From positions 186,001-250,000 of the forward strand of contig NZ_LXKN01000001.1 in the NCBI RefSeq assembly GCF_001692325.1: DNA of 64,000 nt, read 5' to 3'. Below are positions 12,990-56,480 of this stretch, in pieces. A model generated the notes under the pieces. That model had not been told where the DNA came from. It was given only the letters and a program-made list of their open reading frames with translations, and did no database searches. Numbering within the stretch: the first letter of the stretch is position 1; the number at the start of each line of letters is the position of its first letter. The position numbers and the translations under genes are program-made. Origin of the DNA: Rhizobium sp. AC27/96. Its GTDB lineage: Bacteria > Pseudomonadota > Alphaproteobacteria > Rhizobiales > Rhizobiaceae.

Positions 12990-13111
12990 CACCCTCCCCT
13001 TGAGGGGGAGGGTCGGCCGAAGGCCGGGGAGGGGTGATCGTTGGTATGCGAATAGCGGCTGGTCACCCCCACCCGCCGCTATGCGGCGACCTCCCCCCTC
13101 AAGGGGGAGGT
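12990..13111. repeat. Palindromic mosaic repeat, copy 1 (between betB and betA)
   Basis: The ends are inverted copies of a C/G-rich hairpin: ACCCTCCCCTTGAGGGGGAG on the left and, on the right, CCTCCCCCCTCAAGGGGGAG. Each is flanked inward by a second small hairpin (CGGCCGAAGGCCG; CGCCGCTATGCGGCG). A short unrelated core lies between. A second copy with the same arms is at 56363-56480. It resembles the intergenic mosaic elements known from rhizobia. In the bet mRNA it would fold strongly between betB and betA. Confidence 0.85.
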
Positions 13112-13114
13112 TGA

Positions 13115-46203: not shown

Positions 46204-48336
46204 CTATGCCATCAGCCTGTCGATCAATGCCGCCGCCGCTTGCGCGATCACGGTTCCCGGCGGGAAAATCGCGTCTGCGCCGGCTGCCTCCAGTGCTGCG
46301 AAATCCTGGGGCGGGATGACGCCGCCAACGGCGATCAGAACGTTGCCGGCATGGCGGCGCAACAGGGCTTCCTTCAATTCCGGTACCAATGTCAGATGCC
46401 CGGCCGCAAGCGAGGATGCACCGAGGATATCGACGCCTTCCCGGACGGCGACATCCGCCACTTCTTCCGGCGTCTGGAACATCGCGCCGACGATGACGTC
46501 GAAGCCGAGATCGGCGAATGCCGTTGCGATGACTTTCTGGCCGCGATCGTGCCCGTCCTGGCCCATCTTCGCGATGAGAATGCGGGGCTTTTCGCCGCGC
46601 GCCTTGCGGAAGGCTTCGACCTTGGCGACTGCCTTGTTGAAGACCGGGTCGGCATCGCCGACCTCCTGGCGATAGACGCCCGAAATGGTTCTGATGACAG
46701 CGACATGGCGGCCAAAGGCCTTTTCCATCGCCAGTGAGATTTCACCGACCGTTGCCCTTGCGCGTGCCGCCTTCACGGCGAAGTCGAGCAGATTGCCGGT
46801 GCCGTTGCGTGCGGCATCCGTCAGGGCATCGAGGGCAGCTTCCACCGCAGTGGTCTCGCGCGTGCCCTTCAATTGCTGCAGTTTCGAGAGCTGCCGGGCG
46901 CGCACCTCGGAATTGTCGACCTTCAGCACGTCGACTTCGATGTCCTTTTCCGGCTTGGAAAAGTTGATGCCGACGAGGATCTGATGGCCGCTGTCGATGC
47001 GCGCTTGCGTGCGTGCCGAGGCCTCTTCGATGCGAAGCTTCGGAATACCCTTCTCGATCGCCTTTGCCATGCCGCCGAGCGCCTCGACCTCCTCGATATG
47101 CGAAAGGGCGCGGGCAGCGAGGTCATGGGTCAGGCGCTCGACATAGGCCGAACCGCCCCAGGGGTCGATGATGCCTGTCGTGCCGGATTCCTTCTGCAGC
47201 AGGATCTGCGTGTTGCGGGCGATGCGGGCCGAATGGTCGGTCGGCAATGCCAAGGCTTCGTCGAAGGAATTGGTGTGGAGTGATTGTGTATGCCCCTGCG
47301 TCGCTGCCATGGCCTCGACCATGGTGCGGATGATGTTGTTCATCGGGTCCTGTGCCGTCAGCGACCAGCCGGAGGTCTGGCTGTGAGTCCTGAGCGCCAG
47401 GGACTTCTGGTCTTTCGGCGCGAAATTCTTCTGCATCAGCGCAGCCCAGATCAGCCGGCCCGCGCGCATCTTGGCGACTTCCATGAAGAAGTTCATGCCG
47501 ACTGCCCAGAAGAAGGAAAGGCGAGGCGCGAAACTATCGATATCCATCCCGGCCGCGACGCCGGCCCGCGCATATTCTATGCCGTCGGCGATCGTGTAGG
47601 CCAGCTCCAGATCGGCGCTCGCTCCGGCCTCCTGCATGTGATAGCCGGAAATCGAGATCGAGTTGAACTTCGGCATGCGCTGGCTGGTATAGCTGAAAAT
47701 GTCCGAAACGATCCGCATCGAAGGCTGTGGCGGATAGATGTAGGTGTTGCGGACCATGAACTCCTTGAGGATGTCGTTCTGGATCGTGCCCGACAGCTTG
47801 TCCTCGGAAACGCCCTGTTCCTCGCCCGCGACGATATAGAGCGCCATGACCGGCAGCACCGCGCCGTTCATGGTCATGGACACGCTCATCTCGTCGAGCG
47901 GTATGCCGTCGAAGAGCTGGCGCATGTCGAGAATGGAATCGATCGCCACGCCTGCCATGCCGACATCACCCGCCACGCGTGGGTGATCGCTGTCGTAACC
48001 GCGGTGGGTGGCAAGGTCGAAGGCGACGGAGAGACCCTTCTGCCCGGCCGCGAGGTTGCGGCGATAGAAGGCGTTGGACTCCTCGGCCGTGGAAAATCCG
48101 GCATACTGCCTAATGGTCCAGGGTTGCTGGACATACATTGTCGGGTAGGGGCCGCGCAGGAAAGGTGCGGCGCCTGGATGGGTATCAAGGAAATGCAGGC
48201 CGGCGAGATCGCGTTCGTCATAGCGACGCTTGACGGCGATGCCTTCCGGGGTGTCCCAGGCCAGCGCATCCGTCACCGCCGCCTTGGTTTGCGGCTTTGC
48301 CCAGGGGATATTGGCGAAGTCGGGAATCCTGGTCAT
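46204..48336 (-). CDS. scpA: Methylmalonyl-CoA mutase, large subunit
   Basis: A 710-residue coenzyme B12-dependent mutase that interconverts methylmalonyl-CoA and succinyl-CoA, used in propionate, valine and isoleucine breakdown. The TIM barrel opens with [24 protein letters not shown] near residue 72, with the Tyr that contacts substrate. The C-terminal domain has [15 protein letters not shown] (about residue 600), the DxHxxG lower-ligand motif, then [25 protein letters not shown]. Length and order match known catalytic subunits. The upstream gene is the small subunit, 253 bp away, with a mosaic repeat between. Confidence 0.96.
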
Positions 48337-48370: not shown

Positions 48371-48559
48371 TACCCCCCTCTGTCACTTCGTGACATCTCC
48401 CCCACAAGGGGGGAGATCGGTAACCTGTGGCGTGCATTTGCGCCAAATTGGTATTCAGCCAGCTGGAACGGCGTTGTATACTGTTGTGGAGAGAGCGACG
48501 TGCTCCCAACGATCTCCCCCCTTGTGGGGGAGATGTCGCGAAAGCGACAGAGGGGGGTA
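48371..48559. repeat. Palindromic mosaic repeat, larger type (between mutase genes)
   Basis: The outer arms are about 49 bp and mirror each other: TACCCCCCTCTGTC at 48371-48384 and GACAGAGGGGGGTA at 48546-48559. Each arm has two inner hairpins (CTGTCACTTCGTGAC or GTCGCGAAAGCGAC, and ATCTCCCCC-ACAA-GGGGGGAGAT). The core (about 90 bp) is not repeated elsewhere in this window. Frames that cross it on both strands should not be taken as genes. Confidence 0.85.
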
Positions 48560-48589: not shown

Positions 48590-49942
48590 TCATGCCCCCA
48601 CTCCCTCATCCAGCCGTAGTGGTGTCAGCCCCATGCCGCCCACAACTGGACCCGGCGGATCCAGGATCTCGACCGGCCGCTCCGTCTTCATCGCAAACAA
48701 GGTGGATCCAACAATGGGCTTGGTAATGCGGCTTGCACATGCCGCGGCAACCATCGCCGCCAGTTGGCCGCTGGCGATCACCTTTGCCAAGCCGCCATTG
48801 CGCTCGACGCCGGTAAAGATTTCCCACGCCCGTTCGGCCAGTGCATCGGTCAGCGCCTCGATGCCGCCAGCGCCGGCGGCGGGATCTATGACGTGATCAA
48901 GATGGCTTTCGGCGATGAGGATTGTCTGTGTGTTGCGCGCCAGCCGCCGGGCCAGCGGATCGGGAATGCCATGCGCCAGGCTGTGCGGCAGCACCGCGAT
49001 TTCATCTGCGCCGCTGGTGCCGGCGGCAAAGACCGCGATGGTGTTGCGCAGCGTGTTCGTCTCCGGATCGAGCCTCGTAAGCATGCGATAGCTGGTTTCG
49101 ACGAAGAGGTGCGCGGGCTTGGGATCGGAGACGCCACAGGCCTCGGCGATGCGGCCGAATATCAATCGTGCCGCGCGGATCTTGGCCATGGTGGTGAATT
49201 GATTCTGGTCAGCCGAAAGGCAAAGGCTCACCGCCGCCAGCGCTGCTTGCGGAGAAAGTCCCGCCGCATCCAGCAGGCGCAGATGGCCCGCAAGGCTCGC
49301 GGCCATGATGGCCAGTTCCTGCGCTTCGGTTCCGCCGGCATTGTGGACGGCGCGGCCGTCTGCGTTGACGATGGTGCCAGGCACCTTCTGCTCGGAGGAA
49401 CGGCGGATGCTTTCCACTACATCGGCTTGCACGTCACCCACTGAAAAAGCGTCGAGGCCAAGATGCATCGCCGTCGGCGGGTTGGCTTTCAGCGCAGTGC
49501 TCAAAGTCGCCGTCGCATCAGTGGTGAAGCCATCGAGGCGCAGCGAGATGGTCTTGCCGGATAGCGCGTCAGCGATTCTCTGGGCAAATGCCGGCGTGTC
49601 GATGCTGGTTCCCGTGCCAAAGCCAGAGGCGGATTGAGGGGAGACGATACAAATGCCGCTCGCACCGTTGGCAAGATCGTCGTCGAGCTGCCGCAGAGCG
49701 CGATCCCTGTCGGGATCGTCCATGCGCTGGGTAAGGGTCCAAGGGATATCGGTCCGCTTGCGCGATAAAGGCGGATAGTCTGGTCGGCGCTCGTAGAGCG
49801 GTTCGATCGCAATGCCGTCGTCGGTTTGCGATACCAGCGTTTCCTGGAAATCTTTGCCCTTCAGCGCCCGTTCCACCAACTTCAGCCAGGTCTTGCGATC
49901 GGTCTGGTCGAAGATGCTCGGGTCGAGACTGTCGATATTCAT
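48590..49942 (-). CDS. Methylmalonyl-CoA mutase, small (beta) subunit, lacking B12 domain
   Basis: A 450-residue homologue of MutA. It has the N-terminal linker and TIM barrel (ASGICIVSPQSASGFGTGTSID, ADGRAVHNAGGTEAQELAIMAASLAGHLRLL, FAAGTSGADEIAVLPHSLAHGIPDPLARRLARNTQTIL). It ends after VVGGMGLTPLRLDEGVGA and has no C-terminal cobalamin-like domain (MutA is about 620 residues in other bacteria). As in known heterodimers the subunit lacks catalytic cofactor ligands and probably stabilises ScpA. Translation starts at 49942 with GGAGG. A repeat begins 31 bases after its stop. Confidence 0.9.
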   Translation of the reverse strand: MNIDSLDPSIFDQTDRKTWLKLVERALKGKDFQETLVSQTDDGIAIEPLYERRPDYPPLSRKRTDIPWTLTQRMDDPDRDRALRQLDDDLANGASGICIVSPQSASGFGTGTSIDTPAFAQRIADALSGKTISLRLDGFTTDATATLSTALKANPPTAMHLGLDAFSVGDVQADVVESIRRSSEQKVPGTIVNADGRAVHNAGGTEAQELAIMAASLAGHLRLLDAAGLSPQAALAAVSLCLSADQNQFTTMAKIRAARLIFGRIAEACGVSDPKPAHLFVETSYRMLTRLDPETNTLRNTIAVFAAGTSGADEIAVLPHSLAHGIPDPLARRLARNTQTILIAESHLDHVIDPAAGAGGIEALTDALAERAWEIFTGVERNGGLAKVIASGQLAAMVAAACASRITKPIVGSTLFAMKTERPVEILDPPGPVVGGMGLTPLRLDEGVGA

Positions 49943-56362: not shown

Positions 56363-56480
56363 CACCCTCCCCTTGAGGGGGAGGGTCGGCCCATAGGGCC
56401 GGGGTGGGGTGATCTCCAAATTCGCGGCGTGTCACCCCCACTCGCGGCTTTGCCGCGACCTCCCCCCTCAAGGGGGAGGT
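56363..56480. repeat. Palindromic mosaic repeat, copy 2
   Basis: Same layout as the copy at 12990-13111: ACCCTCCCCTTGAGGGGGAG, then CGGCCCATAGGGCCGGGG, a short core, CGCGGCTTTGCCGCG and CCTCCCCCCTCAAGGGGGAG at the right. The outer arms are nearly identical between the copies, while the core differs, as expected of a dispersed element. Confidence 0.88.

Follow-up and report, generated by a model that had tools for sequence, protein, structure and literature searches.

A probable old copy of a mosaic palindromic repeat at the mutA-mutB junction of a Rhizobium, with relatives in frame inside conserved genes

What kind of sequence occupies most of the gap between the two methylmalonyl-CoA mutase genes of Rhizobium sp. 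AC27/96? The element in question spans 48371-48559 (189 bp) of the window, by which the whole 64,000-nt stretch of DNA under analysis is meant, and lies between two genes of the minus strand: mutA (small subunit-like, 48590-49942; TIGR00642 is its best match, below the curated cut-off of that model), which ends 30 nt from it, and mutB (methylmalonyl-CoA mutase, 46204-48336; NF006944, above cut-off), which starts 34 nt from it. The initial annotation described a mosaic element with 49-bp mirrored arms, inner hairpins and a private core that could be cargo. The reading favoured here, with a probability of about 0.6, takes the feature for an old copy of a mosaic repeat that is non-autonomous and MITE- or BIME-like, comparable to the Rickettsia palindromic elements (RPE).

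The mirrored arms are indeed present. Positions 48371-48419 and 48510-48559 form near-perfect inverted arms of 49 bp (the two blocks are 94% and 97% complementary), separated by a core of 90 nt (48420-48509). When the minus strand of the 189-nt element is folded, the predicted minimum-energy RNA structure is an arm-to-arm duplex of -124.1 kcal/mol (z -14.65), an energy reached by none of 200 dinucleotide shuffles. The inner hairpins were correctly seen as well: there are two per arm, and the left arm folded by itself yields both (z -3.47). Each arm is a full match to an arm covariance model, R1 (left, 48371-48417, plus strand, 77.0 bits; right, 48512-48559, minus strand, 75.9 bits), these scores being high by construction, as identical arms from another copy and from a relative are part of the model. 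In the left arm, hairpin 1 (48381-48395, plus strand) is of the TGTCAC/GTGACA type and, judged from the sequence and the pair counts given below, has a covarying stem, while hairpin 2 (TCTCCCCC/GGGGGAGA; 48396-48416, plus strand) is conserved in sequence and devoid of two-sided changes. In the right arm, read from the sequence and the arm model, hairpin 2 lies at 48513-48533 and hairpin 1 at 48534-48549 (both minus strand), the latter having a TGTCGC/GCGACA stem that is unlike that of the left arm and fully self-paired.

The genome-wide search for the arms that had been suggested at the outset found 20 copies, at different sites of the genome (7.29 Mb in 75 contigs). A probe made of one arm and the first core bases matched 40 times, twice at every one of these 20 sites, and at the sensitivity of this probe the genome contains no solitary arm. 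Nineteen copies are 185-192 bp long and the remaining one, L019, measures 274 bp. Mean identity among these copies is 0.85 and 0.89 for the two arms, 0.33 and 0.36 for the outer 30 bp, whose conservation is weak, and 0.22 for a flank used as control; a longer element, with a conserved outer 20 bp (GAGTTTGC...), is conceivable. The core proved not to be private. With copies oriented by eye and L019 set aside for its longer core, the 19 other copies share a core of 93-98 nt at a mean pairwise identity of 0.56 (highest value 0.76), compared with 0.165 for one set of shuffled cores. Among the copies of this genome no consensus fold of the core was obtained on either strand, and no core reading frame is open in all 20, although open frames are more numerous (27 of 120; four of six in the window copy) than in single-base shuffles (11.2 ± 3.2 of 120). 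Since identity is 56%, length is nearly constant and a consensus fold is lacking, the core is best described as a shared drifting spacer; the same features, together with the absence of a frame open throughout, speak against cargo. As the most similar cores are only 0.76 identical, recent movement finds no support. Eight of the 20 copies have the motif GANTC in the core; its density in the cores is 4.2 per kb, compared with 1.0 per kb over the window, and the core of the window copy is without it. As for gene context, assigned by a codon-bias heuristic and my own reading, eight copies lie between convergent genes, seven between co-directional and one between divergent genes, two are in frame within genes and two were left unresolved, a distribution that fits tolerance at gene ends.

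Which of the two predicted structures, the duplex between arms or the hairpins within them, is maintained? The question was addressed with 83 distinct arms retained by a filter on score and length, 79 of which were aligned. Two pairs of hairpin 1 vary on both sides: pair 15/23 (CG 43, AU 26, GC 8, UA 1, other 1) and pair 13/25 (UA 70, CG 6, UG 1, other 2). The alignment contains 41 cells in which both sides have changed, against 14.0 ± 2.5 in shuffles and at most 7 when the partner is slid by 1-3 columns. Of the five whole-structure measures, two do not rise above shuffles: how many pairs show two-sided change (2) and how many pair types occur. Hairpin 2 shows no two-sided change in the 79 arms, and pair 16/21 is non-standard in 26 of them, which have a shorter stem. 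Both hairpin 1 stems could be read in 66 of 77 distinct paired elements (11 were unreadable). The 5-bp stem is fully paired in 128 of the 132 arms thus read, with the proviso that the reading pattern fixes the outermost stem bases and leaves mainly the inner three pairs free to vary. The stems of the two arms differ in 35 of the 66 elements, which include orthologues and are hence not independent; both stems are nevertheless intact in 31 of those 35. The window copy belongs to this mismatched class, with TGTCAC...GTGACA in its left arm and TGTCGC...GCGACA in its right. Because mismatched arms still pair on their own, it is the local hairpin that is kept, and the arm-arm duplex is ruled out as the constrained structure. 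The compensation in hairpin 1 could stem from selection, template-switch repair or gene conversion.

The window contains two further elements, which the initial annotation regarded as sharing a plan with this one but not its sequence, and hence as pointing to two families of common design. When R1 was run without filters on the window, a procedure for which E-values are rough, it matched both arms of the element at 12991-13112 (E 4.2e-6 and 3.6e-8) and both arms of that at 56364-56480 (E 1.9e-7 and 1.3e-6); the next match, at E 0.0036, overlaps the latter element. The shared plan thus stands, the arms look related in sequence, and what differs is their order: one arm occurs in two ARRANGEMENTS, plus-minus at 48371 and minus-plus at 12991 and 56364. 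As R1 matches all four arms, the supposed two families share one arm and are better read as a single arm module in two arrangements. The reversed kind occupies about 12 places in the genome, and minus-plus pairs also occur in four genomes of f41, another family of the order (L105-L108). Strict pairing holds only in the genome under study, since some congeners have strong arms with no detected partner; partnerless arms were also seen in two genomes of g11, another genus of the family to which the genome under study belongs (L110, L111), and in f41 (L112, L114). In a g11 sample of 31 loci fetched from two genomes, G120 and G224 (L198-L228), the outer ends of the 27 paired copies come as short modules that can replace one another, and the two sides of a copy often have different ones. 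In g11 the elements are mosaics, perhaps produced by recombination within the conserved arms.

The idea of a mobilised element implied that copies should exist in other rhizobial genomes, and many relatives do match. In a first sample, a 250-nt consensus matched 13 of 15 other congeneric genomes and none of nine genomes of other genera. A survey with the arm model, which counts genomes and not copies (at most 20 candidates were scored per genome), gave matches at E <= 1e-4 in 92 of 297 genomes of the order; because weak matches are widespread, E <= 1e-10 was used for counting, which leaves 17 of the 297: 11 of the family's 13 genomes, plus six others. Outside the order, no match reached 1e-10 among those listed for a 299-genome sample of the phylum (best value 7.5e-7). 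Two individual loci may be mentioned: in Rhizobium etli p42e a family member (L180) lies between hutG and hutH, a co-directional pair of one pathway, and in G014 two copies stand about 350 bp apart in similar surroundings (L229, C12:83000-84250), which may reflect a local duplication.

Twenty copies at different sites and numerous relatives indicate a repeated and probably once mobile element. Like a MITE, the 189-bp element ends on each side in an inverted repeat and contains no transposase gene. No target-site duplication was readable at the mutA-mutB junction or at four other sites, the intergenic flanks being too diverged at those four. Mobilisation by a RAYT is unsupported: this genome has no gene for a Y1 transposase (PF01797); of 31 genomes in the genus, this one among them, eight have such a gene.

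At the mutA-mutB junction itself, an element is found in the same place in three congeners (G003, whose contig ends within the right arm, G006 and G012), and G002 has the junction without the element; the other 11 relatives have only mutB matches of 70-76% identity and were not treated as offering orthologous junctions. The check for empty sites thus produced an element-free junction, yet one that looks more like the product of a later deletion. In a tree built from pieces of cobN and ftsY, G002 and the filled G012 are neighbours with an ultrafast bootstrap of 75 (adjacent nodes have 40 and 72), and both are near the filled G003, G006 and the genome under study, with weak support. Since G002 groups with a filled relative, loss is the simpler reading, and a site that was never filled is, by this weak tree, the less likely one. 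Shinella zoogloeoides also has a member of the family at this junction, with a different core, and in Shinella sp. PSBB067 (L179) apparently decayed arms surround another palindromic stretch there, possibly a nested insertion.

Two of the 20 copies lie inside genes, in frame and free of stops: L019 in ftsY and L018 in cobN. The flank of the cobN copy is most similar to R. miluonense (86.6% of nucleotides), which puts the genome with Rhizobium. Of 15 relatives, 11 have two arms in ftsY and four have no arm there. An unbroken frame leads from the N-terminal part of the gene across the element in these 11, with two exceptions: in G007 the frame is interrupted upstream and the left arm is in a different phase, and in G003 the contig ends and the frame cannot be read through. 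At the cobN site, examined in 16 genomes including this one, two arms are present in seven and remnants in two; two others carry a different palindromic sequence, NPSPTPP...GEG in translation (L071 in G015, L073 in G013), and five have no recognisable insert. The two anchors that flank the site share one frame in all 16; the cobN frame of G015 is interrupted further on, downstream of its insert. G014 has a second in-frame copy in cobN besides that at the first site, its CobN having inserts of 72 and 71 residues compared with 12 and 4 residues in the solved chain 9uk9_A. A further copy lies inside ribD of G296, where the TIGR00326 match comes as two stretches. Among the uninterrupted frames read here, the left arm gives PPSV... 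(or a decayed form of it) and the right arm ISP.xGEM..., in the same phase; as judged from these frames, the in-frame copies should be translated.

The CobN linker was surveyed more widely in the best 80 of at least 594 CobN relatives from named genomes. Among the 34 most similar loci, seven have a segment SLQRAIA...FDPLD of more than 40 residues, lengthened by palindromes, whereas it measures 18-21 residues in all 46 that are more distant. The long linkers belong to Rhizobium miluonense, R. sophorae, R. cremeum, Ciceribacter lividus, Hoeflea halophila, isolate AFS098815 and a metagenome-assembled genome labelled Arenimonas, whose CobN stands among rhizobial ones; R. lusitanum and Shinella sp. 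SUS2 have what appear to be shorter remnants. The inserts are of the family of 48371 in R. miluonense and R. sophorae and of the reversed-order form in the Arenimonas-labelled genome, and the NPSPTPP...GEG kind also occurs among the named loci. Named loci and the genomes compared above are not independent, as the two sets may overlap: the R. lusitanum remnant is that of G004.

Two quite different explanations may now be set against the mobile-repeat reading. One is that the element acts in the RNA of a mutA-mutB operon, its hairpins slowing decay or being cut by RNase III so as to set the ratio of the two subunits. Its position within 30-34 nt of both genes of a co-directional pair, its strong fold, its orthologous copies in three congeners and the member with another core in S. 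zoogloeoides would all suit such a role. It is nevertheless improbable, for eight of the 20 copies are, by the heuristic used above, flanked by convergent genes and two stand in coding frames, the junction of G002 does without the element, and nothing in the window matches an Rfam family at gathering score. The other explanation dispenses with selection: the hairpins would persist by the mechanics of mutation alone, the stems being rewritten block by block by template switching at quasi-palindromes and by gene conversion from arm to arm. That few stem types recur across copies and arms, and that arms are homogeneous while cores are not, speaks for it. Stem correction alone is insufficient, however, to account for the conserved C-run outside hairpin 1 and the conserved loop of hairpin 2; gene conversion could explain these, and the idea, unlikely as it is, deserves more weight than an operon-specific RNA role.

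It may also be asked whether the element is anything new, that is, whether it simply is RIME, the Rhizobium-specific intergenic mosaic element already published. RIME1 is about 109 bp long with two palindromes, a description that fits the elements at 12991 and 56364 better than that at 48371. In favour of the identity, the portions consulted of PMC2573895 and PMC2245857 present RIMEs as repeated intergenic elements of rhizobial genomes, conserved in sequence and structure, and RIME is also referred to in a part of PMC1273637. On balance this identification is conceivable but doubtful. In the literature searched, no report of in-frame coding copies under the name RIME was found.

If the feature is a mobile palindromic repeat, as favoured here, the following scheme can be proposed. 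The working unit would be the 47-nt arm with its two hairpins, two such arms facing each other across a spacer in the window copy. Spread would be due to machinery acting in trans that recognises the hairpins in single-stranded DNA or in a cruciform. Most copies would be tolerated at gene ends and in gaps, and the one studied here would be carried within a mutA-mutB transcript, while those that happened to enter a tolerant linker of a protein, with the phase open, would be translated and kept. An attractive extension, tentative and falling just short of probable, is that the Rhizobiaceae have protein-coding palindromes of their own: on the sequence evidence, a single arm family, in inverted and everted pairs, may have repeatedly entered FtsY, RibD and CobN (the last at two sites) in one phase and persisted there as translated segments, and the CobN linker would be a hot spot for several palindrome arrangements in several genera. 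If true, new protein sequence would have arisen repeatedly from selfish hairpin DNA in bacteria other than Rickettsia, the group from which in-frame palindromes in conserved genes are best known. A passage of one review goes no further than calling something similar to in-frame RPE conceivable in other prokaryotes (PMC10969869), and among the titles and opening lines of abstracts listed from the open-access literature no description of rhizobial palindromes inserted in frame came up, which is no proof of absence. Being culturable, and offering a hot spot, two arrangements and orthologous sites in filled, decayed and empty states, such a group would open both the movement of the element and its possible contribution to new protein segments to testing. 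Rhizobial proteins could also carry repeat-derived insets that mislead alignments.

How does the family compare with known systems? REP and BIME are paired inverted hairpin units located mostly outside genes, as is largely the case here within the genome under study; unlike REPs that go with a RAYT, the present element coexists with no Y1 transposase gene in its own genome, is built on a 47-nt unit of two hairpins and also lies inside genes. Small bacterial repeats are treated in parts of PMC2759123 and PMC3733652, and Bradyrhizobium REPs in part of PMC5082802. The CcrM-associated intergenic repeats (CIR) of Caulobacter and Brucella consist, according to a passage of PMC2229807, of two arms joined by a linker, an architecture found again here; CIR have GANTC at the hairpin loop, whereas the arms of all 20 copies lack it. 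CIR and RAYT-linked REPs each differ from this family in a feature that was tested. RIME, which was compared by description only, is like this family in being rhizobial, repeated and intergenic. The parallel drawn here is with RPE, described in the sections consulted of PMC10969869 and PMC2229807 as small palindromic repeats that are intergenic or fused in frame in conserved protein genes. Here too a palindrome in many copies (20, z -14.65) has stop-free in-frame insertions, in ftsY, cobN and ribD. The likeness lies in the way of working. In contrast to RPE, the present elements are made of GC-rich, paired two-hairpin arms with a spacer, belong to the Rhizobiaceae, and occupy one and the same cobN linker in several genera, in more than one arrangement.
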